From Prosthecomicrobium sp. N25 (GTDB lineage: Bacteria > Pseudomonadota > Alphaproteobacteria > Rhizobiales > Ancalomicrobiaceae): 64,000 nt of DNA. Where the stretch lies: NCBI RefSeq assembly GCF_037203705.1, contig NZ_JBBCAT010000001.1, positions 965,418-1,029,417 on the forward strand. The letters are read 5' to 3'. The translations under genes and the position numbers were made by a program. Of the stretch, positions 18,106-43,926 are shown piece by piece (within the stretch, counting starts at the first letter, position 1; each line of letters begins with the position of its first letter). Below the pieces are notes generated by a model, which had not been told where the DNA came from, ran no database searches, and worked only from the letters and a program-made list of their open reading frames with translations.

Positions 18106-18183
18106 CCAGTTCGTCCTCCCAGCCGCGAATGATTCGCCCGATCGCAACCCATGCCGGGGAACTGTGTCGGCCTCAAGGCTGCC

Positions 18184-21123: not shown

Positions 21124-21127
21124 GCCG

Positions 21128-22339: not shown

Positions 22340-22642
22340 CAAAGGTCGCTTCCTGGAGCACGGCCACAAGGGTACCAGTGGAACTTACAGGATACGTCGC
22401 CCGGCACCAGCAGAATATGGTTCACGGATCTCCATCGAACGTCGTTGTGTCGGTTATGCAACGACCGCGGCACCCGGGCTGGCTTTAGGGCAGTCTAACA
22501 TCCGGCATCTAGAATACCATTGACGTTAACCATAACTGATGTCCGGGTCGCAGCGAGTAACGGGTGTTCCGACCAACTCGGATTTCCTTGCGTTTGCCCG
22601 GGGCGAGATCGGCCGCCGACTCGGCCTTGCCGGTGAAAGGAC
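22340..22642. promoter_or_regulatory. Divergent promoter region of wza with a 7-bp inverted repeat
   Basis: These 303 nt separate wza from the divergent exported-protein gene and contain no gene. They are more A+T-rich than the flanks. GTCGTTG (22441-22447) and CAACGAC (22459-22465) form an inverted repeat with an 11-nt spacer, a possible operator about 100 nt upstream of wza. No promoter can be assigned with confidence. Confidence 0.4.
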
Positions 22643-24691: not shown

Positions 24692-24708
24692 GGAGGAACG
24701 GGCCAGAC

Positions 24709-27084: not shown

Positions 27085-28221
27085 TCAGCGGCCGTCGGCC
27101 CGCCCGGCCTTGTCCCGCACGAGGTCGTCCGTTACCGCGGCGGTGAACCGGGCATAGGCCTCCCGCGAGAAGAGCTGCTCCATGCGAGCCCGCGCCCGGG
27201 TGCCCAGGCGCTGCCGCAGGCCGGCGTCGTCCATCACCCGCCGGAGGCTCCCGGCGACCTGCTCGGGGTCGAGCGAGGTCAGGATCGCCTCCTCGCCGTC
27301 CCGCGCATAGTCGGCGATGCCACCGACCGGGTTCATGACCGCCGGAAGCCCGACCATCAGGGCCTCCGCGGCGACGATGCAGAACCCCTCCTGGTCGCTG
27401 AGGTTCAGGAACACGTCGTGGTCTGCCGCCCGCCGCCACCAGTCCGGGACGAAGCCCTCGAACACGACCGCCGAGCGGATCCCGAGCCGATCGGCGAGCG
27501 CCTCCAGGTCCGGCCGGGTCGGCCCCGTGCCGACGATGTGGAGCGCCAGCCGCCGGCCCTCGCCGGTCAGGCGCGCGACGGCCGCGAGGGCGAGGTCGTG
27601 CCGCTTGCGCGGGATGAGCCGGCCGGCCATCACGATGCGCAGCGGGTCCGCGGCTCCGTAGCCGGCCTTGGCGAGCGCCTCGGGATCGGCGACGAACAGC
27701 GGAACGACCCGCTGGCGCCGCGGGCGCTCCCGGAAATATCGGCCGGTCTCTTCCAGGGTCGCCTGGCAGTCGGCCCAGATCTCGTCCACGCGCCCCGACA
27801 GGGCTTTCAGCAGGACCTCGTAGACGCCCGTGAGCCGGCCCTTCTCCAGGACGGCGATGTGCTCGAACGCCACGCAGCGGACGCGCGGGAAGGCCATCAG
27901 CACGGCCCGGCCGACGATGTTGGCCTGCTTGAGGGACAGCACGACCGAGGCCGGCCGCTCCCGCCGGATCAGGCGGAAGAGGACGACCGCCAGCTTCAGG
28001 AGGGCAACGATCGTGAGCTTGCGCGACCGCGTCGCCTCCACGATCCGTGCCTCCCCGACCGTCGCGGCGAAGTCGCGCCTGAGGTCCTCCGAGAGGGTGG
28101 CGGCCACGACGATCCGGTAGTCGGTGCCGGCCAGGAAGCCGTTGCGCACGAGCGTCAGGAGGCCGAGCTCGGCGCCGCCGTGCCAGAAGCCGTTGAGCAC
28201 GTAGAGGACCTTCGCCGCCAT
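27085..28221 (-). CDS. Glycosyltransferase family 4 protein
   Basis: The protein is 378 residues with a GT-B fold. The N-terminal domain starts VLYVLNGFWHGGAE. The nucleotide-sugar domain contains IVMAGRLIPRKRHDLAL and the GT4 E-x7-E motif as EGFCIVAAE. It probably adds one sugar to the lipid-linked EPS repeat unit on the cytoplasmic side; donor and acceptor are unknown. It begins 6 nt after the GT2 gene ends. Confidence 0.9.
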   Translation of the reverse strand: MAAKVLYVLNGFWHGGAELGLLTLVRNGFLAGTDYRIVVAATLSEDLRRDFAATVGEARIVEATRSRKLTIVALLKLAVVLFRLIRRERPASVVLSLKQANIVGRAVLMAFPRVRCVAFEHIAVLEKGRLTGVYEVLLKALSGRVDEIWADCQATLEETGRYFRERPRRQRVVPLFVADPEALAKAGYGAADPLRIVMAGRLIPRKRHDLALAAVARLTGEGRRLALHIVGTGPTRPDLEALADRLGIRSAVVFEGFVPDWWRRAADHDVFLNLSDQEGFCIVAAEALMVGLPAVMNPVGGIADYARDGEEAILTSLDPEQVAGSLRRVMDDAGLRQRLGTRARARMEQLFSREAYARFTAAVTDDLVRDKAGRADGR

Positions 28222-28227
28222 CCGGAC

Positions 28228-29235
28228 CTACCTCCCGGATCCGCCGCCGGCCGGGTCCTGCACCCCGAGTGCCTTGCGGCGGCCCGCCACCGACGCCATC
28301 CGGCCCACGATGGGCCGCATGACCGGCGCCGTGGCCACCCGCGAGAGCCAGGATCGGAGACTGAGCGGGTCGAGCCGCAGGGCCAGCCGCGCCAGCGCGA
28401 CGGCCTCCTCGTAGTCCCCGGTCAGGAATCGGCTGTTGGCGAGCTTGCTGGCCCGTTCGGCCAGCCGCGCGGGAACGAGCGGCATCAGCCGCGGATCCGC
28501 GGCGGCCGCCCGGAACGCCACGAAGGCATGTTGCGCCATCAGGTCCCGGTTCGAGCCGGTGATGCTCGACCGCCGCACCCGCTTGTAGAGGAGCGGCTTC
28601 GGCGTGAAGGCGAACCGGCAGACCCGTGCGAGCCTGTTGAACAGGTCCGTATCCTCGAACACCTTGACGGACGGGTCGAAGCCGCCGACCTCGTCGAGGA
28701 CGGCGCGGCGCAGGATGGTCGTCGACGGCACGATCGGCGGGTCGACCTGGAAATAGGCCTTCGCCAGGTCCGCCGCGCCTGTGATGTCCAGCGCCTTGGC
28801 GAGATGCGCGGAGGAGAGATCGCCGTCCGCGAAGAGGTAGAAGTCCGAGTAGACCAGCCCGACCTGCGGATCGGCCTCGATCAGCGGCAGTTCCGTCTCG
28901 ATCTTGTCGGGCGTCCACAGGTCGTCGCCGTCCAGGATCGCGACGAACGGCGTCGAAGTCCGGGCGATGGCGAGGTTGCGCTGTCGCGAGATCCCGTTTC
29001 CGCCCGTCCCGTAGAGGACCTCGACGCGTCGGTCCGCCGCCTCCAGCTCCCTCAGCACCGCGATCGTCTCCGGCGCGGAGCCGTCGTCGGCGATCACGAT
29101 CTTGTCGACGAGGTCGGCCCGCGTCTGATCCGTCACGGACCGGACCGCCGCGCCGATGAACGGCCCCTCGTTGTAGCAGGTCATCACCACCGAAACGCGC
29201 GGCGAGGTGCCGGCGACGGGTGCCGTCGTGCTCAC
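28228..29235 (-). CDS. Glycosyltransferase family 2 protein
   Basis: The protein is 335 residues from a GTG that overlaps the preceding gene's stop as GTGA. A GT-A domain shows VSVVMTCYNEGPFIGAAVRSV, IADDGS and the metal-binding D-G-D in ILDGDDLWTPDK. A later FEDTDLFNRLAR corresponds to the ED acid-base region. The C-terminal 80 residues are helical. It is the middle gene of the GT4-GT2-GT4 run and probably extends the EPS repeat unit. Confidence 0.9.
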   Translation of the reverse strand: MSTTAPVAGTSPRVSVVMTCYNEGPFIGAAVRSVTDQTRADLVDKIVIADDGSAPETIAVLRELEAADRRVEVLYGTGGNGISRQRNLAIARTSTPFVAILDGDDLWTPDKIETELPLIEADPQVGLVYSDFYLFADGDLSSAHLAKALDITGAADLAKAYFQVDPPIVPSTTILRRAVLDEVGGFDPSVKVFEDTDLFNRLARVCRFAFTPKPLLYKRVRRSSITGSNRDLMAQHAFVAFRAAAADPRLMPLVPARLAERASKLANSRFLTGDYEEAVALARLALRLDPLSLRSWLSRVATAPVMRPIVGRMASVAGRRKALGVQDPAGGGSGR

Positions 29236-30398
29236 GGGCCGCTCCTTTCGCGCTGGATGTCCGCGATGGTCGCGAGCGTGCGCTCGGCGACCGAGTCGAT
29301 TCCGATGTGGGCCTCCGCGAAGCCCCGCGCCGCCCGGGCCATCGCGGCCCGGCGATCGGGATCGAGCCTGAGGGCCGCCCGCATGGCCGCCGCGAAGGCC
29401 TCCGGCGTGGATTCCGGGACCACGAAGCCGGTCTCGCCCTGCGTCACGATCTCGGCGACCCCGCTCGCCGCGTACACGATGGGCACGACGCCCGCCGACA
29501 TGGCCTCGAGCAGGGCGTTGGACTGGCCCTCCCGCATGGATGCGGACACGAAGAAATCGGCGCCGAGAAGCTCCCCGTAGACGTCGGCCGTGTAGCCCGG
29601 ATAGCGCACCGCCGCGGACCCGTCCTTCGCCAGCGTCGGCGCCAGCCGGTCCCGCTCCGGGCCTTCCCCGACGAGCCTGAGCTCGACCGCGTCGCCGCCT
29701 TGCTCGACCGCCAGGGCGGCCTCGTGCAGGACCGCGATGCGCTTGTCGGCGACGAGCCGGCCCGCATACACGAAGCGCCGCCCCGACCGGCCCGCCAGCG
29801 CCGCCTCGAGCCGCTCGGCGGGAGGCAGCACCACCCCGTTCGGGAAGCGCGCGATGCGCCGGTCCGGGATGCCGAGCGCGAGGAGTTCGTCTGCGATTTG
29901 GCCGCTGTTGGCCACGAAGCGGTCGACCCGCCGCCGCAGCAGGGCCTCGACCCAGTCCCCGTAGAAGAAGCGCTTCGCGCGCAGCGCCGCGAATTCGGAC
30001 GCCTCGCCGCCGCCGCCGAGCTTGACGAGGAGCGGCGAGCCGCTGCGCATCGCAGCCAGCGCCGGTCCGGCCGCGTGCAGCCGCGCATGAAACACGTAGA
30101 CGGGCACGCCCCGCCATGCCGCACCGCCGAAGCGGGCCGCGAACCAGGCGGTCCAGGCCAGGAACGAGGCGATCCGGCGTCCGCCGAGGTTCGGGTAGTG
30201 GCGGACCTTGCGCCGCACGATCCGCCCGAATGCGGTTTCCTCGACCTCCGGCACATCCGGCGCGACCGTCGGAGCGACCAGGGTGACGTCGACCCCGCGC
30301 CGGCCGAGCGCGTCGGCCAGGATCTGCGCCTGCCGCTCCGCCCCGCCGTAGCTGTCGGGGAAGAACGCGGCGACGACCAGGAGCAGGCGATCAGTCAT
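29232..30398 (-). CDS. Glycosyltransferase family 4 protein
   Basis: The protein is 388 residues. The glycine-rich N-terminus is FFPDSYGGAERQAQ. FVYAGRLVADKRI and the E-x7-E motif EGQSNALLE mark the donor domain. It is first in the run of three glycosyltransferases and a methyltransferase, all minus strand and closely coupled. A terminator 89 nt upstream separates it from the PEP-CTERM-like gene. Confidence 0.9.
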   Translation of the reverse strand: MTDRLLLVVAAFFPDSYGGAERQAQILADALGRRGVDVTLVAPTVAPDVPEVEETAFGRIVRRKVRHYPNLGGRRIASFLAWTAWFAARFGGAAWRGVPVYVFHARLHAAGPALAAMRSGSPLLVKLGGGGEASEFAALRAKRFFYGDWVEALLRRRVDRFVANSGQIADELLALGIPDRRIARFPNGVVLPPAERLEAALAGRSGRRFVYAGRLVADKRIAVLHEAALAVEQGGDAVELRLVGEGPERDRLAPTLAKDGSAAVRYPGYTADVYGELLGADFFVSASMREGQSNALLEAMSAGVVPIVYAASGVAEIVTQGETGFVVPESTPEAFAAAMRAALRLDPDRRAAMARAARGFAEAHIGIDSVAERTLATIADIQRERSGP

Positions 30399-30549: not shown

Positions 30550-31131
30550 TCAAGCCGTGGCGGCCCGCGCCCGGCGCCGGCGCCAGGCCATGAAGCCGCC
30601 GAACCCGGCGAGCAGCGGCAGGGCCGCGCCCGCGACGGGCCCGGGGACCGATGCCGCGCTGAGCGAGAAGTTGTCGAACGACACCGACGAGGTCGGACCG
30701 CCGAAGCCGAACGCACCGGCGCTCAGCAGCACGGACTGGACGCCGTTGCTGTAGAAGGACCCGGAGTTGGTCCCCGAGCTCGGCGCGAACAGGGTGCCGC
30801 CGAAGTTGGCGAGCGTCGTGCCGCCGGCCGTCACGCCCCAGGTTCCGAGCGACGACCCGGTGACCTTGTAGTCGAACGAGACGTTGTACCAGCCCGCCGC
30901 CAGAGACAGCGCTTGCGAGAACAGGCCCGCGAAGCCGCCCGATCCCGAGTTGCCGATCGTGGCCCGGCCCGACGAGGCGTCGACGGTCCCGAAGTTGATC
31001 GTCCAGCCCGTCATGTCGTTGGTGGCGAAGTCGCCGTTGGTGACGCCGGCGGCCTGCACCGGAGCCGCCGCAAGCCCCGCAAGCGCCGTACACGCGAGGG
31101 CGCGTACAACCTTTAGTCGAAGTGATGTCAT
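30550..31131 (-). CDS. Secreted protein with PEP-CTERM-like (VPGPxAGA) sorting tail
   Basis: The protein is 193 residues from the ATG beginning MTSLRLKVVRAL; a signal peptide ends near VQAAG. The mature domain is a Gly/Ser/Thr-rich beta-sandwich candidate opening VTNGDFATNDMTGW, like carbohydrate-binding folds. The last 32 residues are a tripartite tail: VPGPVAGAA, a hydrophobic helix (LPLLAGFGGFMAW) and an RRRRAR cluster. This architecture is that of exosortase substrates of the VPLPA/PEP-CTERM type. An exosortase is encoded at 41885 in the same locus. The gene is flanked by a terminator and is probably monocistronic. Confidence 0.8.
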   Translation of the reverse strand: MTSLRLKVVRALACTALAGLAAAPVQAAGVTNGDFATNDMTGWTINFGTVDASSGRATIGNSGSGGFAGLFSQALSLAAGWYNVSFDYKVTGSSLGTWGVTAGGTTLANFGGTLFAPSSGTNSGSFYSNGVQSVLLSAGAFGFGGPTSSVSFDNFSLSAASVPGPVAGAALPLLAGFGGFMAWRRRRARAATA

Positions 31132-31486
31132 GTATGGCCTCCTGACCGACCTCGATAGTGATTCGAGGCCCCGCAACCATCTCTGATATCGCAGTTGCGA
31201 AATAGCCGTCAAGAAGGGGAGTCGAATCCGTTTAGGAAAATGATCCCGCTACTTTTTCAGGTACGTAGCCGCGAAAGCTGATCGTGGGGCGTTCATTACA
31301 CTGGCCAGGCCCGATAACCATGTCAGGCCTGAGGGAAAAATTCTGCGGGTTACGGAAGGAACGTTTCAGAATAGCCTCGGTTCCAAACTTATGGCAAGAA
31401 TATGGCAGCAGAAATCTATTGTTTGGCAACCGCCGAGATGATTGAATAGGATGTCGAAGCGTTCACCGGTCGGGCAGGGAGATACA
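31132..31486. promoter_or_regulatory. Divergent promoter region, A+T-rich, no gene
   Basis: These 355 nt separate the PEP-CTERM-like gene from a divergent glycosyltransferase. They are clearly more A+T-rich than the rest of the locus and contain no convincing reading frame. CAGGCC (31306-31311) and GGCCTG (31326-31331) form a short inverted repeat. The region probably carries both promoters, but no box stands out. Confidence 0.4.
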
Positions 31487-32686
31487 ATGGCAGGGTGTAC
31501 CGTCGTCCACGTCATCACGCGCTTCATTCGCGGCGGTGCGGACGAGAACACTCTCATCACCTGCAACAGGCAGGCGCGCGCCGGCCTGGACGTGGTGCTC
31601 GTGGTCGGACGGGAGCATCATCCCGACATGGTCGCCAAGCTCGATCCCGCCGTGCGGCTGGAGGTCGTCAGCTCTCTCGTGCGCGAGGTGAACCCCTGGC
31701 ACGATGGGGTCGCCCTGGCGACCCTGGTGGCGCTCCTGCGCCGCCTGCGCCCCGATGTCCTGCACACGCACGAAAGCAAGGCCGGCATCCTCGGCCGCTT
31801 CGCCGCCGCGATCGTCCGCGCCCCGCTTGTCGTCCACACGGTGCACATCCTGCCCTTCGTCAACGTCTCGCCGGCCAAGGCGAAGGTCTTCCTCGCCCTG
31901 GAGCGGCTGGCCGCCCGGGTGACGGACCAGTTCATCGACGTCAGCGAGGGCATGCGGGACGTCTGCATCGCCCACGGCCTCGGCACGGCCGAGACCCACG
32001 TGGTCGCCCCGAGCGGGATGAACGTGGCGCGCTTCCGCAACGCCACCGCTCCGGACCGCGCCGGCCTCTTCGGCGTCGACCCGTCATGGCTGACGACGCC
32101 GGCCGGACCGGCCGTCGTCGCGCTCGTCGCCGGCGCGCTGGAGCCGCGCAAGCGCGTAACCGAGCTCGTCGAGGAACTCGGTCGCCGCGGCATGCCGCCG
32201 GACCTGCGCCTCGTCGTCGTCGGCGATGGCCCCGAGCGGCCGGCGGTCGAGAAACGCGTCGCCGCCGGGGGGCTGGCCGACAAGGTCCTTCTCCTCGGCC
32301 ACCGCGGCGACCTGGAACGCCTCATCGCGGCGGCGGATCTCTGCGTCCACGCCGCCTCCAACGAGGGCCTGCCCCGGGTCGTGCTGCAATACGTGATGGG
32401 AGGGCGGCCGGTGGTCGTGCCGGCCCTCGCCGGCATCGAGCGCGTGGTGGAGGACGGCCGTACCGGGGACGTCGTCGGCTTGGACGGGGTCGGTCCGGTG
32501 GTCGATGCGATGCTGGCGCTCGCCGCCGACCCGGACCGGCGCGCCCGCTACGCCGCCGGCGCCCGCGCGATGGACATGTCCGCCTGGGACGCCGACCACA
32601 TGATGCGCCTGATCGGCGAGGCCTATGCCCGCGCCGCCGCCTCCCGCGGGCTGCCGGCCCCGATCGCGTCGGCCCTGGCCCGTTGA
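31487..32686 (+). CDS. Glycosyltransferase family 4 protein with altered E-x7-E motif
   Basis: The protein is 399 residues from the ATG with AGGGAG 6 nt upstream; two earlier in-frame starts lack sites. The N-terminus VVHVITRFIRGGADENT and the donor domain ALVAGALEPRKRV fit GT4. The usual E-x7-E is EGLPRVVLQ, with glutamine in place of the second glutamate, while the HAASNEG context is intact. It stands alone and convergent with the epimerase gene. It probably adds a sugar to the EPS unit, but the changed residue may affect activity or donor use. Confidence 0.87.
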   Translation: MAGCTVVHVITRFIRGGADENTLITCNRQARAGLDVVLVVGREHHPDMVAKLDPAVRLEVVSSLVREVNPWHDGVALATLVALLRRLRPDVLHTHESKAGILGRFAAAIVRAPLVVHTVHILPFVNVSPAKAKVFLALERLAARVTDQFIDVSEGMRDVCIAHGLGTAETHVVAPSGMNVARFRNATAPDRAGLFGVDPSWLTTPAGPAVVALVAGALEPRKRVTELVEELGRRGMPPDLRLVVVGDGPERPAVEKRVAAGGLADKVLLLGHRGDLERLIAAADLCVHAASNEGLPRVVLQYVMGGRPVVVPALAGIERVVEDGRTGDVVGLDGVGPVVDAMLALAADPDRRARYAAGARAMDMSAWDADHMMRLIGEAYARAAASRGLPAPIASALAR

Positions 32687-32699
32687 ACCGGCCCCGGCC

Positions 32700-33710
32700 T
32701 CACAGGCCGTTGTAGCTCCGGTACCACTCCACGAAGGCCGGCACGCCGACGTCGACCGGCGTCGAAGGCCGGTAGCCGGTGAGCGCCTCGAGCAGGCGGT
32801 GGTCCGCGAAGGTCTCGCGCACGTCCCCCTTTTGGATCGGCAGCATGATCTTCTCGGCGGTCCGGCCGGTGGCCTGCTCGACGCAGGTCACGAAGTCCAT
32901 CAGCTTGACGGGCGTGCCGCCCGCGATGTTGACCACCCGCCAGGGCGCCGCAGGCGACAGGGTGTCGACCACCCCGTCCGCCGAGACCGGATCCCCCTTG
33001 ACGGGCGCATTGTCGACGAGCCGGACGATCGCCTCCACGAGGTCGTCGATGTAGGTGAAGTCGCGCTTCATCTCGCCCATGCCGTAGACCTCGATGGGCT
33101 CGCCGGCGAGGATCGACTTCACGAACTTGAAGAGCGCCATGTCGGGACGCCCCCACGGCCCGTAGACCGTGAAGAAGCGGAAGCACGTGGTCGGGATGCC
33201 CCACAGGTGGGAGTACGAATGGGCCATCTCCTCCATCGCCTTTTTTGAGGCCGCATAGAGCGTGATGGGCCAGTCGGCCTTGTGGGATTCGCGGAAGGGC
33301 ATCTCCTCGTTCGCCCCGTAGACGGAGCTCGTCGAGGCGAGCAGCAGGTGCTTCGGCTGCAGCACGCGCGCCAGCTCCAGCACGTTGAACGAGCCGACCA
33401 GGTTGGCATCCACGTAGGTCCGCGGATGCTCGAGCGAGTAGCGCACGCCCGCCTGGGCGGCCAGATGCACGATCACGTCGGGCTCGGCGAGTTCGCCGGC
33501 CCTCGTGAGCGCCTCCATGTCCTCGAGCCGCGCCACCACCGCCCTGAAGCCGTTGGAACGGCCCAGGATGGCATGGCGGGCTTCCTTCAGCCGGCGGTCG
33601 TAATAGTCCGTCATGGCGTCGAAGCCAACGACGAAATGGCCGTCGTCGAGGAGCCGCTTGGCCAGATGGAAGCCGATGAAGCCGGCCGTTCCGGTGATCA
33701 GGAAACGCAT
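32700..33710 (-). CDS. NAD-dependent epimerase, UDP-glucuronate 4-epimerase-like
   Basis: The protein is 336 residues from the ATG with GGAAGG upstream. The Rossmann motif is GTAGFIG (7-13). The extended-SDR catalytic set is the serine in STSSVYG and Y-x3-K in [21 protein letters not shown] is characteristic of UDP-glucuronate 4-epimerases such as LspL, which make UDP-galacturonate. The preceding gene, ugd, supplies UDP-glucuronate; the two are 28 nt apart on the same strand. Together they suggest that the polymer contains uronic acid. Confidence 0.9.
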
Positions 33711-33738
33711 GGAGTGACCTTCCGCCGAGTGGGCGCTT

Positions 33739-35043
33739 TCAGGCGCGGCCGATGCTGACATACGTGAAGCCGCGCCGGCGCACCTCGTCGGGCTTGTAGA
33801 TGTTGCGCAGGTCGACCAGCACCGGCGCCTCCACGATCGCCTTGATCCGGTTGAGGTCGAGGGCCCGGAACTGGTCCCACTCGGTCACGATCGTGACCGC
33901 GCTCGCCCCTTCGGCCGCCTCGTAGGCGTTGTTGCAGAAGGTCACGTTGGAGAGGAGCGGCTTCGCCTGCTCGGTCCCCTCGGGGTCGTAGGCCCGGATG
34001 CTGGCGCCGGCGTCCTGCAGGGCCTGGATGACCGACAGGGCGGGGGAATCGCGCATGTCGTCGGTGTTCGGCTTGAAGGTGAGGCCCAGGATCGCGATCG
34101 TCTTGCCGCGCACCGAGCCCCCGCAGGCCTGGATGACCTTGCGGGCCATGGCGCGCTTGCGGGTGTCGTTGATGGCGACCGTAGCCTCGATCAGCCGGAC
34201 CGGCGAATCATAGTCCTGCGCGGTCTTGACCAGCGCCAGCGTGTCCTTCGGGAAGCAGGATCCGCCGTAGCCCGGCCCGGCATGCAGGAACTTGGAGCCG
34301 ATCCGGTTGTCGAGGCCGATGCCGCGCGCAACGTCCTGCACGTTGGCGCCGACCTTCTCGCAGAGGTCCGCCATCTCGTTGATGAAGGTGATCTTCATCG
34401 CCAGGAACGCGTTGGCGGCGTACTTGATGAGCTCGGACGTGCGCCGCTCCGTGAAGAGGATCGGCGACTGGTTGAGGTAGAGCGGCCGGTAGACCTCGGT
34501 CATCACCTCGCGGGCACGGTCGTCCGCGACGCCGACCACGATGCGGTCCGGCCGCTTGAAGTCCGAGATCGCCGCGCCTTCGCGCAGGAACTCCGGATTG
34601 GAGCAGACCGAGACGTCCGCCTGCGGGTTCTCCTCGCGGATGATCCGCTCGACCTCGTCGCCGGTGCCCACCGGCACGGTCGACTTCGTGACCACGACCG
34701 TGAAGCCCTTGACGGCCCGGGCGATCTCCTGGGCGACGCCGTGCACGTAGGAGAGGTCGGCATGGCCGTCGCCGCGCCGGGACGGGGTGCCCACCGCGAT
34801 GAAGACGACGGCGGACTCCGCGACCGCGCTCTTCAGGTCGGTGGTGAAGGTGAGGCGCCCCGCCTTGACGTTGCTGGCCACGAGCGTGTCGAGGCCGGGC
34901 TCGAAAATCGGAATCCGCCCGTCCTTCAGGGCCGCGATCTTGTCCGGGTTGTTGTCGATGCAGACCACGTCATGGCCGAAATCCGCCAGGCAGGCTCCCG
35001 AAACCAATCCGACATAGCCCGATCCGATCATCGCGATGCGCAT
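33739..35043 (-). CDS. UDP-glucose 6-dehydrogenase
   Basis: The protein is 434 residues, the normal length. The N-terminal NAD-binding motif is [21 protein letters not shown]. The catalytic cysteine sits in [13 protein letters not shown], and the C-terminal domain has [18 protein letters not shown]. The enzyme oxidises UDP-glucose to UDP-glucuronate with two NAD+. It is first in a two-gene operon with the 4-epimerase and supplies the uronic acid precursor for the EPS. Confidence 0.96.
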
Positions 35044-35595: not shown

Positions 35596-36924
35596 TCACG
35601 TCAGGATTCGGACCAGGGCCAGCGCGAGTCCGCCCGCCAGGGTGAGATAGGCGGTGATCACCGCCGGCCGGTAGGTGATCGAGAAATACCGTTTTCCGAT
35701 CAGGTGGGTCATGAACGCGAAAAAGGCGTTGACGATCACGTTGGCGTAGACCGCGAGCTGGAGCCCGCCATACCAGACGAACAAGACGCTCAGGACGACA
35801 TTGAGGGCGAGCGCCGTGACGGAGATGGGGATGATCTTCTTGTTCTGGCGGGAGACGAAGAAGCCGATGCCGAAGATGTTGTTGTAGGACGTGAGCCAGG
35901 CCCCGACCACCACGGGCGCGATCGCGTCGTACAGCATCGCGTACTGGCCCGACTTGTCGATAAACGCGGCGATGCGATCATAGAAGACGATCATCACGAG
36001 ATAGATCGCGAAGGACGACAGCATGTAGAAGATGGCCATCTGGCCGACCGATTTCTGGTCGTTCTTCGTCGCGGCCCGGAGAAGGGACGGAAGCCAGGCC
36101 TTCTGCAGCGGCATGGCGGCCAGTTTGGTGAGGTCGCCGAGGCGGGACAGGAAGGTATAGCCGCCGGCCGCGCCGAGGCCGAGCATGAACAGCACGACCC
36201 AGCGGCTCGCCATGCTGCTCAACTCCGTCATGGCCCTGTGGATGATGAGCGGCAGGGAGTAGCGGAGCAGGACGCCCATTTTGGAGAAGCCGAAGCCGTG
36301 CAGCGCGAACACGCGGTAGGTCGCCCAGAGGAACATGGGGGCCCAGCCGGCGATCTGCGAATAGCCCGTGACGACGAGGTCGCTGCTCTTCCGGTCGAGG
36401 AACAAGAACAGGACCACAACGTTGATCATCGACGGAATCGTCTCCAGAAACGCGTGGAGACCCGTGCGGCCGGTCATCCGGAAGATCTCGAACTCCATGT
36501 AGATGATCGGCCGGAACGCGAAGGACAGGATGTAAAGTCTGAGCGGAAACACGAGGTCCGCGTCGACGACCGTTTCCAGCACGCGCGTCGGCACGAGCAG
36601 GATCGCGGCCGCCAGCACGGCGAAGAACACGAAGCTGAAGGACGCGCCCGTGGCGGCGATGGCCCGGGAATCCTCCTCCGAGGTCGCGATGAAGCGGGGG
36701 ACGCCGATCCGGGGGATGCCGAGCGTGCAGATGTCCACGACCAGGAATGCGACCAGCGCCATGGTGCCGACGAAACCGAGTTCATGCGGCGTCAGAGCGC
36801 GAGCAAGCAGGATGAAGGCCAAAAGGTCGAGACCCTTGAGGGCGACCTGGCCAAATCCGTAGAAGATCACGGACCGGACGAATCCCGCGTGGGATCGCAG
36901 GAGCTTCCGAATGCTATCGATCAT
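35596..36924 (-). CDS. Polysaccharide flippase (Wzx/MATE-like)
   Basis: The protein is 442 residues from the ATG beginning MIDSIRKLLRSH; a longer in-frame start is unlikely. It has about 12-14 hydrophobic segments. VIFYGFGQVALKGLDLLAFILLARALTPHELG is the typical first-helix pattern of the polysaccharide biosynthesis (Wzx) branch of the MOP superfamily. It should move lipid-linked repeat units across the inner membrane for the polymerase. Its G+C content is visibly lower than that of neighbouring genes, as often seen in Wzx genes; transfer is possible. Confidence 0.88.
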   Translation of the reverse strand: MIDSIRKLLRSHAGFVRSVIFYGFGQVALKGLDLLAFILLARALTPHELGFVGTMALVAFLVVDICTLGIPRIGVPRFIATSEEDSRAIAATGASFSFVFFAVLAAAILLVPTRVLETVVDADLVFPLRLYILSFAFRPIIYMEFEIFRMTGRTGLHAFLETIPSMINVVVLFLFLDRKSSDLVVTGYSQIAGWAPMFLWATYRVFALHGFGFSKMGVLLRYSLPLIIHRAMTELSSMASRWVVLFMLGLGAAGGYTFLSRLGDLTKLAAMPLQKAWLPSLLRAATKNDQKSVGQMAIFYMLSSFAIYLVMIVFYDRIAAFIDKSGQYAMLYDAIAPVVVGAWLTSYNNIFGIGFFVSRQNKKIIPISVTALALNVVLSVLFVWYGGLQLAVYANVIVNAFFAFMTHLIGKRYFSITYRPAVITAYLTLAGGLALALVRILT

Positions 36925-37279
36925 AACACCGTCTTTCCCGGGAGGGCCTGCAAGCTCTCCAGAATCAACCTCGTAGACCCAATGTGTCCAACTGTGTACC
37001 AATTGAGGACAAAGCGACCGCGCATTTCCTCTTTTGACAAGAGCACCCATCCGAGCCCATTGTCGACCGGGCGATCTTGAGCAATGCAGCGCGCGACATC
37101 GTGGGTGTAGAGAAGACTACAACTTATGGGAAGTCTAGCGCTGAAAGATCGTTAAAACTAACAGGCATCGCTCGGCACGCCGGATATCCGATGGATCACC
37201 GGTGGCCGTGACGTATGCGCCACAGGAATTGGACGATTGCGTCGACGGAGGTCTGGCTCGGCAGGGCTGAGCCAAAGAG
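36925..37279. promoter_or_regulatory. Divergent promoter region between flippase and pyruvyl transferase
   Basis: These 355 nt hold no convincing gene. They are comparatively A+T-rich, especially around 37115-37165. They must carry the start signals for both divergent genes, but I could not assign boxes. Confidence 0.4.
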
Positions 37280-38578
37280 ATGGGAATGTGCAGCATGAAG
37301 ACAAAGACGGCGCTGATCACGCGTCTCAGTACGCAGAACGCCGGGAACGAGGCTCTGTCGACCGAGCTCATCAGGATGTTCCGGCAGAAGCCGGACCTCG
37401 AGACGCGGGTGCTCGACCGCTATCCGCGCAAGCTGGAGACGAGGTCCTTTGCGGAATTCGGTCCGGACCTCTCCGAAGCCGTCCCGACCTTCGAGCGCCT
37501 GACCGAGGCCGAACTCCCCCGGGAGCGGCCCGTGTCGAACCCGAGCCTCGCGCCGCTGGCCGACGAGAGTCTGGTCGCCCTGGATACAAGCGGCAAGGAA
37601 CTGCCGGGCTGGGTGCGAAGCGTGAAGCGCCGCATCGGCGTGCGCCGCAACCTCGCCGCCCTCGGCCTGATCGGGCGCGAGGAGGCCAATACGACCCTCG
37701 ATACCCTGAACTGGGCCGACCTGGTCATCTGGAATCCCGCCGGCGAATTCCACCCCACCGGCGACCCGGACCAGAATCTCAGGATCCTGATGCTGATGCG
37801 GGCCGCCCAGCGGGCCGGCAAGCGCACCGCGATCATCAACCACAGCCTCGAGATCGAGGAACCACGCCTGCGCGCCGTCGTGTCCCACGTCTATCGGCAC
37901 TGCGACTTCCTGGCCGTCCGCGAGGAGCCGTCCGCCGATGCCGTGCGCGCCCTGGGCGTGACGCCGAACAGGATCCAGGTCGTACCGGACATCGTCTTCC
38001 GCGTCTCGCGCGAGCCCGGCCCGCTGCCCGCCGGGGCCATCGTTCCCGAGGGTGCCATCGGCTTCTCGATCAACGGTCTGGAGGCGGAATCCGGCCTCGA
38101 CGAGTGGGACGCGCTGTTCTCGGCGTTGAAGGCCACGGGTAGGCCCTTCGTCTTCGTGTCGAACGCCGCCAACCACGATCTCGCCTTCGCCGAGCGCATG
38201 GCCCTGCGCTACGATGGCAAGGTGGTCGGCTGGCAGCCCAAATATCGCGACCTCCAGTCCATCATGTCCCGCCTCGCCGTCCTGGTGAGCAGCCGCCTGC
38301 ACTCCAGCATCCTGGCCATGAGCGCCGGCACCCCGGTGGTCACCGTGGAACCCTCCGTCCACAAGCTGACCGGGATCATGCAGGAGATCCGCTATCCTCT
38401 CGCGACGAGACGATCGACCGATCCGGGTTGGTCGGAGCGCGTGGTCGCCGACGTGTCGCAGATCCTCGCCGACCGCCCCCGCTATGCCGCATTGTGCGCA
38501 GCCATCGTGGACGAGCAGGCCAGGCGGATCGACGACCTCTACGACAAAGCCTTGCAGGCCATGATGCAGCCCTGCTGA
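37280..38578 (+). CDS. Polysaccharide pyruvyl transferase family protein
   Basis: The protein is 432 residues. The N-terminal TQNAGNEALS matches the N-x-GN motif of the family. Further markers are the central NPAGEFHPTG and YRHCDFLAVREEPSADAVRALGV, and late in the protein SRLHSSILAMSAGTPVV. Such enzymes add pyruvate ketals from phosphoenolpyruvate to EPS sugars, or in some branches act as pseudo-glycosyltransferases. ATGs at 37280 and 37295 are both possible starts. It is divergent from the flippase. Confidence 0.82.
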   Translation: MGMCSMKTKTALITRLSTQNAGNEALSTELIRMFRQKPDLETRVLDRYPRKLETRSFAEFGPDLSEAVPTFERLTEAELPRERPVSNPSLAPLADESLVALDTSGKELPGWVRSVKRRIGVRRNLAALGLIGREEANTTLDTLNWADLVIWNPAGEFHPTGDPDQNLRILMLMRAAQRAGKRTAIINHSLEIEEPRLRAVVSHVYRHCDFLAVREEPSADAVRALGVTPNRIQVVPDIVFRVSREPGPLPAGAIVPEGAIGFSINGLEAESGLDEWDALFSALKATGRPFVFVSNAANHDLAFAERMALRYDGKVVGWQPKYRDLQSIMSRLAVLVSSRLHSSILAMSAGTPVVTVEPSVHKLTGIMQEIRYPLATRRSTDPGWSERVVADVSQILADRPRYAALCAAIVDEQARRIDDLYDKALQAMMQPC

Positions 38579-39250
38579 CGGGCTCCTGCTCCCTTGCCGC
38601 CCCGACCGCGCGCCGGGCCGAGGCGAGGCCCGGCGGGTCGCAGGCAGCCGCGGCATTGCCTTCTCGCCTTCACAGTCTCGCCGCCTCCGCCTGCGATGAC
38701 CGTCTGCCACGGCGGGAATCGCCGGAAAGGTTGACGTTTCCTGAAGGCTTCCGAGGGCCCGTCGTCTCGGTCGCCCCACCGGAGAATGCGCATGGATCAC
38801 GAAGGCGAGAACTGGGCGTCGCTGCGAAAGACTTCACGACAGACCCGCAGGCCGAGGCTGATCTGTCCCGTATCTCACAGATCTCGCAAGATCGACTTCG
38901 GCTCCACCAGTCTCGGCCAACATGACCAGGGCCTGACCTTGGCGCTCATCTTGGCGAAGTCCTGCCCGGAGAATGCAAGCGCTGCGTGAAGTCCCCCGCG
39001 GCTCACGCGATCCCGACCACTCGACTAAAACCTCCGGGAAGCCGTTCGGGTCCCCATAACCATATGCCAACCCCATGAGTTTCAAGGCCAAATTGGTCAC
39101 CGGCCCTTAAGGCGCCCGACCCCAGCATCGGTCCCGGAAAGCGCGAGAGGACATGTCCTTCGTCCTGCCCGGCGGCCCGCGGGGGATCCTCGACCTCCGC
39201 CGTCCGGCGCGAAGGCTCCGACGCCAAGGTCTGGTTGAAAGGTGAATGCG
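38579..39250. other. 672-nt stretch without a recognisable gene
   Basis: The short open frames here have no credible start site or family signature. The middle part (about 38800-39100) is less G+C-rich and could be a decayed gene or a long regulatory leader. It separates the pyruvyl transferase from the GH16-exosortase group and should hold the latter's promoter. Confidence 0.45.
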
Positions 39251-41749
39251 ATGGTGGATACCCCGATCGATCCCCGGGTGACGCGAAGGGGCCTGCTCGG
39301 CGGCGCGGCCTGCCTGTTCATGGCAGGTCCGGCTTCCGCCCTCCCGTCGGGCTTGCAGAAGCTCGGCCGGGCCACGACCTCGACGGGCTCGCTGGCCTTC
39401 GTCAACGGCCGGCCGATCGCCCTGACCGATCCGGCCGGCACGCTGATCGGAGAGATCAGCGGCCTGTCGTCCACCTCCGGCGCAACCTTGGTCAGCCGCA
39501 GCCAGACCTACGAGGTCGGCGTCTCGGGCACCGGCGCGAACCTGAACCTGGGGCCCTCCCTGTTCCGGGAGCCCGGCCGATACCTGACCCGTCTGCATCG
39601 CAGCCTCACCGACACCACCCAGCCTGTCGTCGCCCAGACTCTCGTCCTCCGGCAGGGCATGTCGCCCGGCATGCCCTGGAGTCCCTACGTGAACGACCAT
39701 CTGGTCGTGAACGGCTGGCACCAGGAGGACCTCGGCATCGGCCCCGTCTCCCAGTGGAAGGCGCGCGGCTGCCGGGCGGCGCTCGCCGCCCAGGCGGACC
39801 CGACCCTGCAGCCCGTCCGCACCGCCGACGGCAGGGGAGTCGAGTTCCCGGCCCGCGCCCCGAACCACCTCGTGTGGCCCAACGACGCGATGCGCCATCT
39901 GCTCGTCAGGGCCCACCTGACGATCCTGCGCATCGACCCGACGGCCGGCGCGGAGACCTTCGTGGTCGTGCCGCACGGCTACACGGGCAGCGCCAACAAC
40001 CGCTGCGGCGCCGTCATCTACAACCCGACCCTGGGCAAGCTGCAGGTCCAGTGGAACGACTACACGGGCTATAATAGCCTTGTCGCGCCGACCAACGTGA
40101 CGCCGAACAAGGAGACCTGGGCCTTCGTCCTGGGCTTCCGGGTGGACGGCAACTACTGCCTGAAGATCAACGGCGGCCCGATCATCCGCACCGGCAAGTA
40201 CCACAATCCGGTCTACAACAACGGCTCGACCTCGACCTTCGGCTGCACGATCCACCGCCAGAACGTGGCCTTCGCGATCGACGCCCACCTCGACCTGCAA
40301 GGCGAACTTACCGATGCGGTCGTCGCCAAGCTGGAGTGGTGGGCCGCCCAGCGCGCCGGTATCGCGCTGCCGAGCGGCCATCGCTACGCCAATGCGGCCG
40401 CGGTGGTGGACGCCGACGACTTCCCCGTCTCCGAGGACAAGTTCGACAAGGGGGCTTGGGACCTCTACATCGCGGATTCGAAGAACACCGCCGTGACGGC
40501 CTCGAACCGGGGCAAGCCGGTTCCCTCGACGGTCGAGGGCGCCTTCAGCGAGCTCGTCTTCAACGACGACTTCCGGCGGGACAGCGTCGTCGACGGCCAC
40601 AAGTCGGCGCCGGGCATCTGGTACAGCCAGGGCGGGCTCGCCCACAACACCGTCGGGGTGAACGCCGTGCTCGGGCACGCCTCCGACACGATCGACTGCT
40701 ACCCCCACGATCCGGCCACCGGCACCCTATCGATCCGCCTCCAGTATGCGGGCGGCGCGTGGCGGACCGGTGCCATCAGCACCGTCAACCTGGCCAACCA
40801 GGGCATCACCTTCCAGGGCCCGATGGCCCGCGAGATCCGCTTCCGCTTCAAGATCCCCACCGGCCCCGTGGCGCGCGGCTATTTCCCGGCGCCGCTCTGG
40901 TCCTACGGCGTCAACCGGTCGAAGCTCTTCACCGGCATGGCCTGGGAATTCGACGACCTGGAGCTCGACGGCCGTGATCCGACCTACGTGAACGCGGGCT
41001 CCTCCCATTCGCACGAGGGCCTCATCGCGGGCTGGATGGGCCGGCGGACCCCCGACGAGGACAAGGACCGCGTCAAGCAGCTCGGGGCCCCGATGAACGG
41101 GCTGAACGGCTTCCCGAAGATCAACTTCTACGACGGCCAGTGGCACGTCCTGAAGACGATCGTGGACGACGAATTCACCTACATCGTGGTCGACGGGGTC
41201 GAGCTCAATCGGGTCCGCACGCCCCTGGAGCTCTTCCGTCGCATCCACCTCATCTCCAACTTCGCCATGGTCCTGTCCTATGGCGAACCCTCGCGCACCG
41301 CCCTGCACGACATGGAGATCGACTATGTCCGGGTCTGGAAGAAGACCCGCGACGTCGCCACCGTGGTGGCCCCCTTCTCGGCCCGTCCGCAGATCCTGGG
41401 CACCCCCGCGGTCGGCTCGACCTTGACGGTCGACGCGAAGCTCCCGGGCGTGACGACGGTCCGATACGAGTACTACCACGACGACGGCTACCCGCTGGCG
41501 ACCGCCTCCGGCCCGACCTACGTGGTGCAATCCACCGACGCAGGGAAGCGCATCCGCGCCAAGGTGATCGCCATGTCGGCGACCGACCAGCCCGAGGCCT
41601 GGACCGAGTTCACCGCCGCGGTCCCGGGCGGCTCGCCCTCGGTGATCCCGTCGCCGATCTCCGGCAGCGGCTCCACCACGAGCGGCACCACCACCGGGAC
41701 CGGAACGACCTCGACGGGCGGGTCCACATCGAAGAGGCCGAAGCGGTGA
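39251..41749 (+). CDS. Tat-exported LamG / GH16-like multidomain protein
   Basis: The protein is 832 residues; the ATG at 39251 follows AAAGGTG. A twin-arginine signal (TRRGLLGGAACLFMAGPASA) opens it. Residues of about 190-380 form a LamG-like domain ending AKLEWWAAQRAGIALPSGHRY. Residues of about 430-700 resemble glycoside hydrolase family 16, with the catalytic E-x-D-x-x-E preserved as EFDDLE (E566, D568, E571) and the closing MEIDYVRVWKK. An Ig-like domain (about 715-795) and a Ser/Thr/Gly linker ending in basic residues follow. It may trim or bind the EPS. It directly precedes the exosortase. Confidence 0.8.
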   Translation: MVDTPIDPRVTRRGLLGGAACLFMAGPASALPSGLQKLGRATTSTGSLAFVNGRPIALTDPAGTLIGEISGLSSTSGATLVSRSQTYEVGVSGTGANLNLGPSLFREPGRYLTRLHRSLTDTTQPVVAQTLVLRQGMSPGMPWSPYVNDHLVVNGWHQEDLGIGPVSQWKARGCRAALAAQADPTLQPVRTADGRGVEFPARAPNHLVWPNDAMRHLLVRAHLTILRIDPTAGAETFVVVPHGYTGSANNRCGAVIYNPTLGKLQVQWNDYTGYNSLVAPTNVTPNKETWAFVLGFRVDGNYCLKINGGPIIRTGKYHNPVYNNGSTSTFGCTIHRQNVAFAIDAHLDLQGELTDAVVAKLEWWAAQRAGIALPSGHRYANAAAVVDADDFPVSEDKFDKGAWDLYIADSKNTAVTASNRGKPVPSTVEGAFSELVFNDDFRRDSVVDGHKSAPGIWYSQGGLAHNTVGVNAVLGHASDTIDCYPHDPATGTLSIRLQYAGGAWRTGAISTVNLANQGITFQGPMAREIRFRFKIPTGPVARGYFPAPLWSYGVNRSKLFTGMAWEFDDLELDGRDPTYVNAGSSHSHEGLIAGWMGRRTPDEDKDRVKQLGAPMNGLNGFPKINFYDGQWHVLKTIVDDEFTYIVVDGVELNRVRTPLELFRRIHLISNFAMVLSYGEPSRTALHDMEIDYVRVWKKTRDVATVVAPFSARPQILGTPAVGSTLTVDAKLPGVTTVRYEYYHDDGYPLATASGPTYVVQSTDAGKRIRAKVIAMSATDQPEAWTEFTAAVPGGSPSVIPSPISGSGSTTSGTTTGTGTTSTGGSTSKRPKR

Positions 41750-41884: not shown

Positions 41885-42727
41885 ATGGCTGACGTAGCGA
41901 CCGATCTCCGGCCCACGGCGGCCTATCGCCCGGCGGGCAGCGCCGTCGACTTCGGCAGCCTCCTGGTGCCCTTCGTGCTGATCGGCTTCGCCAACGGCGA
42001 CTACGCCAAGGTCGCCGCGTCCCTCGATACGCTGGGCCTCCTCGAATCCCTCTACGCCACGTTCCAGATCAGCATCGTGGTCTGGGTCGGCATGTGGCAG
42101 GTGCTCGATCTCCTGAGCCAGTCCACGCTCGGGCCGACCACCCGGCGCGATGGCGCCGTCCTGGCCCTGGTGGGTTTTCTGTTCCTGTGGCCGATCTCCA
42201 GCCTCGCCTGGGCCGGCCTCGCCCTCCTCGCGGTCTACCTGCTCCTGGTCCGGGCCACCGACGATGTCGGCCGGCGGGCCGCCTGGGTGATCCTCGCCCT
42301 CTCGGTCACGAGCCAGTGGGCGCCGATGGTCTTCAAGTTCCTGACCGACTGGATCCTGCTCGTCGACACCGTCCTGGTCGCCACCGTCAGCGGCAGCGAC
42401 TATTCGGGCAACCTCGTCTTCGCCCGCGACGGCAAGACCGTCCTGAACGTGCTCGCCGGCTGCTCCTCCTTCGCCAACCTGTCCCTGGCCTTCCTGGGCT
42501 GGATCATGGCGCGCGCCCATTACGGCACCCGCGGCCTCGCCAGGTCCGTCCTGTTCCTCGCCCTGTCGGGGACGCTCGTCGTCGCCATCAACACGATCCG
42601 GATCGGGATCATCGCGCTCCGGCCCGACCTCTACGACCTGGCGCACGGCTCGGTCGGCGCGAACATCGCGAGCCTGCTGACCACCGCCTCGATCGCCGCC
42701 GTGTCCCTCTACGGGGCGCGCCGATGA
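41885..42727 (+). CDS. Exosortase/archaeosortase family transpeptidase
   Basis: The protein is 280 residues with about eight TM segments. The exosortase triad is visible and in order: Cys193 in LAGCSSFANL, Arg239 in INTIRIGII and His254 in AHGSVGAN. The glycine usual after the Cys-Ser pair is a serine here. Exosortases cleave PEP-CTERM-type tails and are typically linked to EPS loci. A candidate substrate is encoded at 30550. The start chosen gives MADVATDL; a GTG two codons upstream is possible. The next gene overlaps by 4 nt. Confidence 0.82.
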   Translation: MADVATDLRPTAAYRPAGSAVDFGSLLVPFVLIGFANGDYAKVAASLDTLGLLESLYATFQISIVVWVGMWQVLDLLSQSTLGPTTRRDGAVLALVGFLFLWPISSLAWAGLALLAVYLLLVRATDDVGRRAAWVILALSVTSQWAPMVFKFLTDWILLVDTVLVATVSGSDYSGNLVFARDGKTVLNVLAGCSSFANLSLAFLGWIMARAHYGTRGLARSVLFLALSGTLVVAINTIRIGIIALRPDLYDLAHGSVGANIASLLTTASIAAVSLYGARR

Positions 42728-43212
42728 CGCTCACGCGGCCGCTCACGATGGCGTTCCTGGCCTTCGCCCTCCTCACCATCGGCCTGAAAGTCGCTTTCGA
42801 GAACCGGGTCGGCTACGCCCGCCTCAACCCGACCTTCCTGGCCGAGGCCGAAGCCGCGCTGCGCGGGCAGGGCTTCGAGATCCTGCGCAAGCCCGGCAAC
42901 CTCGTCGTCGGCGGGGTCAAGGATGCCTGCCTGCTCTGGGTCGGGCCGGCCCGTCCGGAAGGCGGCGACGACGACTACCTGACCCTGACCTTGGGCAGCC
43001 TCGGCCGGATCGGCTACTGGTACCGCGGCACGGTCGCGGAGGAGCGGCCCGTCATCGGCCCGCTGCTGGACCGCTACAAGGCCCGCTTCCTCTCCGCCTT
43101 CGGCTCCACCATCGTGGCCCCGCCACTCTATTTCGTCGCCTACGCGAAGGAGTGCGCGCCCGAGACCGTCTCCGGCCTCGGCCTCCGCCGCGAGCCTGAA
43201 GCGGTCGACTAG
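42724..43212 (+). CDS. Small anchored protein coupled to the exosortase, unknown function
   Basis: The protein is 162 residues, starting in an ATGA overlap with the exosortase gene. One hydrophobic N-terminal segment (MAFLAFALLTIGLKVAF) suggests a signal anchor with a periplasmic remainder. I recognise no family. The position is that of EpsI-type companions of exosortases, and the size is near, but the EpsI sequence pattern is not evident. Two cysteines (DACLLW and AKECAPE) could form a disulfide. It is probably an exosortase partner. Confidence 0.75.
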   Translation: MTLTRPLTMAFLAFALLTIGLKVAFENRVGYARLNPTFLAEAEAALRGQGFEILRKPGNLVVGGVKDACLLWVGPARPEGGDDDYLTLTLGSLGRIGYWYRGTVAEERPVIGPLLDRYKARFLSAFGSTIVAPPLYFVAYAKECAPETVSGLGLRREPEAVD

Positions 43213-43235: not shown

Positions 43236-43377
43236 ATCTCGCCTGGACAGACCGCGTGTAAAGACCGGTCAATCGCGCTCCGGTGACGGAAATGTGAGGC
43301 CCGGTTGTCGTTGAGTTTTGCAGGACGCGTCTGGTATCAAAGATCCTTGCGGGTTCTTTCCAGCGCGGATCGAGTTC

Positions 43378-43926
43378 ATGAATCCCATTGACGTCGCCAT
43401 AGGCTTCTGGGTCGACTACATCATGGCTCCCGATCCCGCAAAGGCAGCCGCCTGGAGCCGCCTCGTATACTTCCTGGCCGAAAACCCTGCCGCTTTTGAG
43501 GGCCTGTGCGGGGCGGGGTCTGTCCTTAACAAGGTCGCGGTCGACAACTTGCGCGCCGCGGTCCTGCGGGTCCTCGCGGCCCGGCTGGCGACCCGGCAAC
43601 TGGCGGCAGCGGGCGCCGAGGCGCTCGTCACGGAGAGCGTGTCCGCCCGCTTCCTGATCATGCGCATGGCAACCGTCTACGGGCGCGTTCCCAAGCTTCC
43701 GACGCCGCCGCAGGTCCAGTTGGCGATCGGCCTGGCGATCATCATCGGCACGACCGGGCAGGCCTTTGCCGAGGGCAACGCCCGTAAGGCGAAGGCCGAG
43801 GCGTACCAGGAGTATATCGTCGACTATTTCCTCCACGTGGTGAAGATCGGCCAGATGCACCCGCGCGCGCTGCCCCGCATCGTCCCGCCGAAGACTTTCG
43901 ACGAGTGGTACGCCGAGAACGCCTGA
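43378..43926 (+). CDS. Hypothetical protein with one membrane segment
   Basis: The protein is 182 residues from the ATG beginning MNPIDVAIGFWVDYIM; a TTG 20 codons earlier is less likely. I recognise no family. A helical N-terminal half is followed by a hydrophobic segment (VQLAIGLAIIIGTTGQAFA near residues 115-135) and a polar tail ending FDEWYAENA. It stands alone between the exosortase group and the rhamnose operon, with 165 nt and 210 nt of non-coding DNA on either side. Confidence 0.6.
   Translation: MNPIDVAIGFWVDYIMAPDPAKAAAWSRLVYFLAENPAAFEGLCGAGSVLNKVAVDNLRAAVLRVLAARLATRQLAAAGAEALVTESVSARFLIMRMATVYGRVPKLPTPPQVQLAIGLAIIIGTTGQAFAEGNARKAKAEAYQEYIVDYFLHVVKIGQMHPRALPRIVPPKTFDEWYAENA

Follow-up and report, generated by a model that had tools for sequence, protein, structure and literature searches.

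A divergent exosortase with a conserved partner protein and a PGP-type C-terminal sorting signal in Prosthecomicrobium sp. N25

The window analysed here is a stretch of 64,000 nucleotides from the genome of Prosthecomicrobium sp. N25 (contig NZ_JBBCAT010000001.1, positions 965,418 to 1,029,417). It contains an exosortase-family gene, a partner gene that overlaps its end, and a cluster for extracellular polysaccharide (EPS), assigned by Pfam, around the gene of a putative sorting target. Features are listed by window position.

15772-38578, mixed strands: EPS cluster around the putative target (Pfam)
15772-18147, minus strand: Wzc/Wzz-BYK (Pfam)
18949-21171, minus strand: Wzy_C ligase (Pfam)
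21128-22369, minus strand: Wza (Pfam)
26059-27036, minus strand: methyltransferase (Pfam)
27085-28221 (minus), 28228-29235 (minus), 29232-30398 (minus) and 31442-32686 (plus): four glycosyltransferases (Pfam)
30550-31131, minus strand: putative target of 193 aa, counted from the ATG at 31131, with a signal peptide (by eye) and a glycine/serine-rich domain
30553-30657, minus strand: C-terminal signal of the putative target, SVPGPVAGAALPLLAGFGGFMAWRRRRARAATA, of PGP type, i.e., Pro-x-Pro, hydrophobic stretch and Arg cluster
32700-33761, minus strand: epimerase (Pfam)
33739-35043, minus strand: UDP-sugar dehydrogenase (Pfam)
35596-37050, minus strand: Wzx-type flippase (Pfam)
37280-38578, plus strand: pyruvyl transferase (Pfam)
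39242-41749, plus strand: 835-aa neighbour in the locus, with a twin-arginine start, a Ser/Thr-rich tail and no C-terminal hydrophobic signal
41885-42727, plus strand: exosortase-family membrane protein P0001, 280 aa (motif invariance, profile match, AlphaFold, tree)
42461-42463, 42599-42601 and 42644-42646, plus strand: codons of the putative catalytic triad C193, R239 and H254 (positions in the 280-aa ORF)
42724-43212, plus strand: conserved partner P0002, 162 aa, with an N-terminal helix, an alpha/beta domain and conserved C69 and C144

The original prediction had placed a full Wzx/Wzy-type EPS cluster before the exosortase gene, and Pfam indeed finds Wzc/Wzz, Wzy_C, Wza, a flippase and glycosyltransferases there. 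It had also taken the product of 39242-41749 for a Tat-exported GH16 protein. The twin-arginine start is visible by eye, as is an ExDxxE-like motif, but the GH16 assignment found no support, as the protein matched nothing in Pfam (E ≤ 10) and no PDB sequence (E ≤ 1). Two overlapping genes of the EPS cluster, 22643-24691 (plus strand) and 24658-26016 (plus strand), encode proteins of 682 and 452 aa that gave no Pfam match over cut-off. Downstream of the partner gene, the 202-aa product of 43318-43926 (plus strand) had no Pfam match at E ≤ 10, and a search of 79 other loci revealed no homolog for it at E ≤ 1e-8.

P0001 had been described as a 280-residue membrane protein with Cys193, Arg239 and His254 in the order and context of exosortases, and with serine instead of glycine after the Cys-Ser pair. 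The ORF, its length and its residues are as described: C193, N236, R239, H254 and G258 are in place, and the Cys motif reads CSS. In two alignments, one of 30 rows (A4) and one of 40 rows (A8, comprising the window and 39 of 48 named loci), C193, N236, R239 and H254 were invariant in 30/30 and 40/40 rows, P0001 included, and Gly258 was kept in at least 90% of rows; P0001 and some genomes occur in both alignments. The named set includes five loci whose genomes are already in the unnamed set, giving identical rows in the tree described below. Two loci were left out before counting: L059 (16.8 bits, no partner), which was not taken as a relative, and L060 (a match with internal stops). Mean column identity in A4 falls to 26%, yet the Cys, Asn, Arg and His do not vary, which argues against P0001 being a catalytically dead or repurposed exosortase homolog, such as a polysaccharide-processing or scaffold membrane protein. 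A repurposed protein would fit the loss of the glycine from the Cys motif, and an early conjecture, cited in PMC1569441, took EpsH itself for a flippase or polymerase. With a sorting-signal protein also lying within 1.5 kb in 35 of the 48 named loci, we consider this explanation very improbable.

The AlphaFold model of P0001 (pLDDT 92.3) has nine predicted helices of at least 15 residues, as compared with the eight or more transmembrane helices expected of the superfamily. In the model, C193 lies directly before helix 196-213, R239 toward the end of helix 218-245, and H254 directly before helix 256-279. By helix direction, the three residues are predicted to be on the same face of the membrane, with the Arg-bearing turn 214-217 opposite. 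A Foldseek search of the PDB returned no match to the P0001 fold at E ≤ 0.001. Exosortase and partner were predicted as two separate chains, because a mixed alignment of a natural fusion placed the partner rows on the exosortase half.

By profile search, P0001 scored 15.9 bits against the superfamily model TIGR04178 (cut-off 23) and had no Pfam match at E ≤ 10. A paralog in the same genome, which shares 43% identity with P0001, exceeded the TIGR04178 cut-off of 23 with 26.5 or 23.2 bits. The model matched 21 of 30 group members at E ≤ 0.01 (Pfam EpsH matched 1/30), and all ten relatives that were scanned singly did so as well, six of them passing the cut-off. Exosortase HMMs, by which the original prediction was to be judged, do match members of the family, with P0001 itself under the cut-off. 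Against named subfamilies, P0001 reached 21.2 of 125 bits for ArtD and 15.3 of 170 bits for XrtX, and the singly scanned relatives 16-23 bits against cut-offs of 90-425; no named subfamily's cut-off was reached by P0001 or any of these ten. The likeness to ArtC, ArtD, XrtD, XrtF, XrtR, XrtW and XrtX is weak (15 to 23 bits in P0001 and singly scanned members), the cut-offs of these seven NCBIfam types (90 to 425 bits) standing far above the scores of the group. In the 30-member scan, 13 named subfamilies matched one to four members each at E ≤ 0.01, the best being CrtB at 1e-7. On these sequence comparisons no named type fits P0001 and the ten relatives, in agreement with the initial remark that the type does not obviously match a named subgroup; some of the other members, for which E-values were compared, may belong to a named type.

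Profile-profile comparison gave a closer view of the relationship to classical exosortases. Using hhalign, the 40-row P0001 profile was aligned to 15 EpsI-fused classical exosortases with 95% probability (E 2e-8), with Cys on Cys and Asn-x-x-Arg on Asn-x-x-Arg, column for column. The His stands in the same following motif but was left unaligned, its spacing from the Arg being 15 residues versus 21. The expected alignment of the triad with classical types thus held for the Cys and for Asn-x-x-Arg but not for the His, and the order Cys, Asn-x-x-Arg, His-x-x-x-Gly is present in the group as in the superfamily with the His matched by motif only. In addition, a cognate tripartite C-terminal signal, as expected of the superfamily, was found in the same genomes as the P0001 group. 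By motif, profile and cognate signal, we assign P0001 to the exosortase/archaeosortase superfamily.

The invariant motifs of EpsH are Cys-x-Gly, Asn-x-x-Arg and His-x-x-x-Gly (Haft 2006, PMC1569441). In the P0001 group, Cys-x-Gly is replaced by Cys-Ser-Ser in 40/40 rows of A8 and 20/30 rows of A4, the other A4 rows reading CAS (four), CSV (two), CST, CTT, CDS and CAG (one each); the glycine required of EpsH is found in 1/30 A4 rows. The spacing from Arg to His was 15 in 70/70 rows (A4 and A8) versus 21 in 28 classical sequences, and only this spacing is an independent count, because the classical set was picked by a pattern containing Cys-x-Gly. The set was built from the 30 loci of a phylum sample that matched TIGR04178 best, less L207 (no ORF picked) and L223 (wrong frame). 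In a maximum-likelihood tree of 97 rows, a single branch with 100/100 support split the 69 group rows from the 28 classical sequences, which were its scope of comparison; a tree with known Xrt types had been envisaged, and the named types entered the analysis by score. The window, L010 (the own-genome paralog), L011 and L040 formed one clade (support 99/90).

These differences bear on a rival reading, in which P0001 would be a standard XrtA/EpsH-type exosortase that works with EpsI on PEP-CTERM targets and has simply drifted in sequence. P0001 and XrtA/EpsH belong to the same superfamily, with the Cys, Arg and His in the same order and the partner gene in the place of EpsI, and several library models match some members weakly. 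The 100/100 branch, the replaced Cys-x-Gly and the uniform spacing of 15 all speak against drift, as do a partner that hhalign separates from EpsI and 18 targets that reach no PEP-CTERM cut-off (both described below), and we give this explanation little credence. Within the range of the libraries and of the comparison set, P0001 is best described as a divergent exosortase whose signature, partner and signal mark a new subgroup.

The coupling of a partner gene to the exosortase gene, noted in the original prediction, is real: the two overlap by 4 bp, and the partner proved to be conserved well beyond the window. In the 30 A4 loci, the next ORF begins at the exosortase stop or overlaps it, and its product has a hydrophobic helix at the N terminus as well as cysteines. 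By profile, 47 of the 48 named loci have a partner after the exosortase; the contig of the 48th (L134) ends 137 bases past the exosortase. In partner sequences aligned from 28 of the 30 loci, the second Cys was invariant and the first was present in at least 90% (L058 is without it), and both were invariant in the 39 rows of a further alignment (A9, comprising the window and 38 of the 47 partner-bearing named loci). Across 41 genomes, the partner profile detected one partner beside each of 21 exosortases (19 genomes), none in the 22 genomes without exosortase, and one weak extra match (G316, E 3e-4), its rows being drawn mostly from the 19 exosortase-bearing genomes on which it was tested. On the strength of this conservation, we regard the partner as a component of the exosortase system. 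In three Microvirga, exosortase and partner are fused into one ORF:

L126:2328-3719, 463 aa
L142:6760-8151, 463 aa
L248:4875-6314, 479 aa

These fusions provide a natural template for the exosortase-partner complex.

The partner is predicted to consist of one helix and then an alpha/beta domain (pLDDT 87.6), a fold for which Foldseek gave no PDB match at E ≤ 0.001. No Pfam or NCBIfam family matched more than one of 28 members at E ≤ 1, and the best PDB match by sequence was a designed helical repeat (E 0.01 over 47 residues), which was not convincing. EpsI, described in the relevant passage of PMC1569441 as having no known function, was considered as an identity for the partner and rejected, since hhalign against 17 EpsI sequences gave 0.3% with the 39-row and 0.1% with the 28-row partner alignment; no EpsI match was found in the own genome at E ≤ 0.001. 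By profile, what stands beside P0001 is not the adjacent or fused EpsI expected of XrtA/EpsH systems.

Neighbourhood scans revealed, beside the exosortase, small proteins whose last part runs from Pro-x-Pro through a hydrophobic stretch to a cluster of Arg. Their signal reads [VA]PGP-x-AGxGLP, followed by a hydrophobic stretch and RRRR, and forms the C-terminal end of small secreted proteins. A signal profile of five rows (A3, from genomes G000, G140, G360 and G599) identified six copies in the own genome at E ≤ 1e-4, one of them in the window:

C6:235776
C1:995982 (window 30550-31131)
C1:2410300
C1:27553
C2:616987
C1:268266

The window copy, which is itself one of the five profile rows, had an E-value of 1.6e-14 in this search. 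The ORF P0004 is the same frame as the 193-aa target, read from an upstream TTG.

The signal was found to track the exosortase across genomes. In a first survey, it was detected at E ≤ 1e-4 in 11 of 13 exosortase genomes versus 0 of 23 others, and in 7/9 versus 0/23 when the row-giving genomes G000, G140, G360 and G599 were removed. Among 397 genomes of the order, it was present (E ≤ 1e-4) in 8/19 with and 0/378 without exosortase; without G000, G140 and G360, these figures were 5/16 versus 0/378 (Fisher p 6e-8). Up to 150 signal candidates were scored per genome in the first survey and up to 20 in the 397-genome survey, for which the exosortase and signal searches were taken as the same draw, the listed genomes being in agreement. 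Matches in genomes without exosortase were weak, with best E-values of 0.0016 in G016 (eight at E ≤ 1) and 0.0058 in G014. Proximity pointed the same way: in the 48 named loci, one of which (L125) is from the same genome as a profile row, 36 signal matches (E ≤ 0.01) were found in 35 loci, 29 upstream and seven downstream of the exosortase, and 36/36 lay within 1.5 kb of it. The corresponding binomial p of 2e-22 overstates independence because the lineages are related. The same profile gave no match on 6256 reversed ORFs.

No signal-bearing protein was detected within 1.5 kb in 13 of the 48 named loci, nor any signal at E ≤ 1e-4 in 11 of the 19 exosortase genomes of the order. Six of those 11 carry diverged Pro-x-Pro tails beside the pair (L015 and L043-L047; GPLP, APAP and similar). 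In L047 (10713-11628), four tandem short proteins with closely similar tails (PGPV.GVVAGPWG...YGAYRAYK and variants) directly follow the exosortase-partner pair and are perhaps a diverged and multiplied target. By eye, the targets are alike in little beyond the signal peptide and tail. Of 18 target proteins, none exceeded the cut-off of PEP-CTERM (TIGR02595) or other Gram-negative CTERM models; those of L010 and L015 barely passed LPXTG_anchor (16.8 and 16.3 versus 15.9 bits), with no LPXTG motif in either. Ahead of the six targets in the own genome, one simple pattern revealed no promoter of sigma-54 type; the test is a weak one, since the start codons of some targets are uncertain.

In many of the named loci, target, exosortase and partner form a compact cassette. 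The window differs, in that its pair lies within a polysaccharide locus while targets are scattered over the genome, the window target being 10.8 kb from the exosortase rather than adjacent. Two loci among its nearest relatives look similar: the pair of L011 lies among flippase, glycosyltransferase and nucleotidyl transferase genes, that of L040 directly after Wzc, and the targets of these genomes (G008 and G165) are elsewhere. In Rhizobium sp. WL3, the pair sits inside a colanic-acid-like locus, with both genes labelled hypothetical protein. Of the 48 named loci, just 10 have homologs of the window's Wzc, Wza, Wzy or Wzx in the vicinity of the exosortase, so by that test EPS linkage is not general. 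The own genome also holds a second complete set of exosortase, partner and PGP-tailed target (L010:11632-13372, contig C6), a compact cassette whose neighbours are pyruvate kinase and a GntR-type regulator rather than EPS genes. Both exosortase-partner pairs of the genome are thus candidate enzymes for the putative target at 30550-31131.

Position would instead suggest the 835-aa twin-arginine protein (39242-41749) as the physiological substrate in the window, since it is encoded by the nearest gene upstream of the exosortase. Its C terminus, however, is Ser/Thr-rich and basic, with neither a hydrophobic stretch nor a Pro-x-Pro signal, and no homolog was found at E ≤ 1e-8 in the 48 named and 31 further loci; we hold this assignment to be most unlikely in comparison with the PGP-tailed protein.

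Taken together, we propose, with a probability of roughly 0.85, that the window encodes a two-component exosortase of a so far unnamed subgroup, which cuts PGP-tailed exported proteins with the help of its partner. Proteins with an N-terminal signal peptide and the [VA]PGP-x-AGxGLP C-terminal signal would be exported through Sec and tethered by their last helix, with Pro-x-Pro facing the periplasm and the Arg cluster lying in the cytoplasm. Cys193 of the exosortase, aided by Arg239 and His254, would cut near the PGP motif and hold the protein as a thioester, and the one-helix partner would sit on the enzyme and help to present substrate or acceptor. The trimmed protein would then be passed to an acceptor or released, reaching the cell surface with the EPS of the surrounding cluster. 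A bolder version, which we put forward tentatively and think rather doubtful, is a sorting enzyme whose two subunits divide the work: the exosortase would cut, and the partner, as the transfer half, would take over or position the cut protein. The partner may then act via its pair of conserved cysteines or by binding the acceptor, a polysaccharide or lipid. If true, the partner would have come independently to the role that EpsI may have in classical systems.

The proposed two-component exosortase resembles XrtA/EpsH in being, by its predicted model, a multi-helix membrane protein with the order Cys, Asn-x-x-Arg, His-x-x-x-Gly, a tripartite C-terminal signal on exported proteins, a gene directly downstream or fused, and an EPS context (PMC1569441). 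It differs in having Cys-x-Ser for Cys-x-Gly, an Arg-His spacing of 15 rather than 21, a partner unrelated to EpsI by profile, and a PGP-x-AGxGLP signal instead of PEP. The Pro motif, hydrophobic domain and basic tail also recall archaeosortase A and PGF-CTERM of Haloferax volcanii, likewise of superfamily TIGR04178 (PMC7157517). That enzyme, however, is archaeal, its substrates have been shown to carry lipid at the processed C terminus, and the portion of PMC7157517 concerned describes no comparable partner. EPS-linked sorting of C-terminally tagged secreted proteins is known for cyanoexosortase B of Nostoc punctiforme, deletion of which lowers target proteins outside the cell (PMC12188702). 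One of the 30 members here matches the CrtB model (E 1e-7); cyanoexosortase B, in contrast, has PEP-CTERM targets, and P0001, compared by profile only, is without a CrtB match at E ≤ 10. In a floc former, overexpression of a PEP-CTERM protein turned released EPS into bound EPS (PMC9850573).

It has long been asked what happens to the substrates of exosortases, and why many of these enzymes are accompanied by a second protein. The system described here is a compact version, usually with one small target, one enzyme and one partner, often as three adjacent genes, and occurs, for example, in Mesorhizobium, Bradyrhizobium, Microvirga and Devosia. Loci with a single small target could make the cleavage site, the acceptor and the role of the partner easier to address. 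Among the matches listed for the exosortase/archaeosortase literature, searched by title and the starts of abstracts, no description of the system was found, the 2012 subgroup survey falling outside the comparison; the signal letters and names such as PGP-CTERM gave no literature matches. One of three plasmid records lists genes at the place, both as 'hypothetical protein', and the system may therefore be invisible in annotated genomes. At the level of sequence, the initial observation is confirmed and its exosortase interpretation supported; it had overlooked the surrounding system, namely the conserved partner and the cognate signal, one copy of which lies in the window.

Two further loci merit mention. 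The contig that carries a cassette in L144 has been binned as the cyanobacterium Kaiparowitsia implicata; the row closest to this cassette in the tree is from Devosia submarina, and the bin is therefore possibly contaminated. In Devosia algicola (L154:7923-8774), the exosortase looks interrupted, because the profile matches two separate ORFs, and the partner and target ORFs remain.
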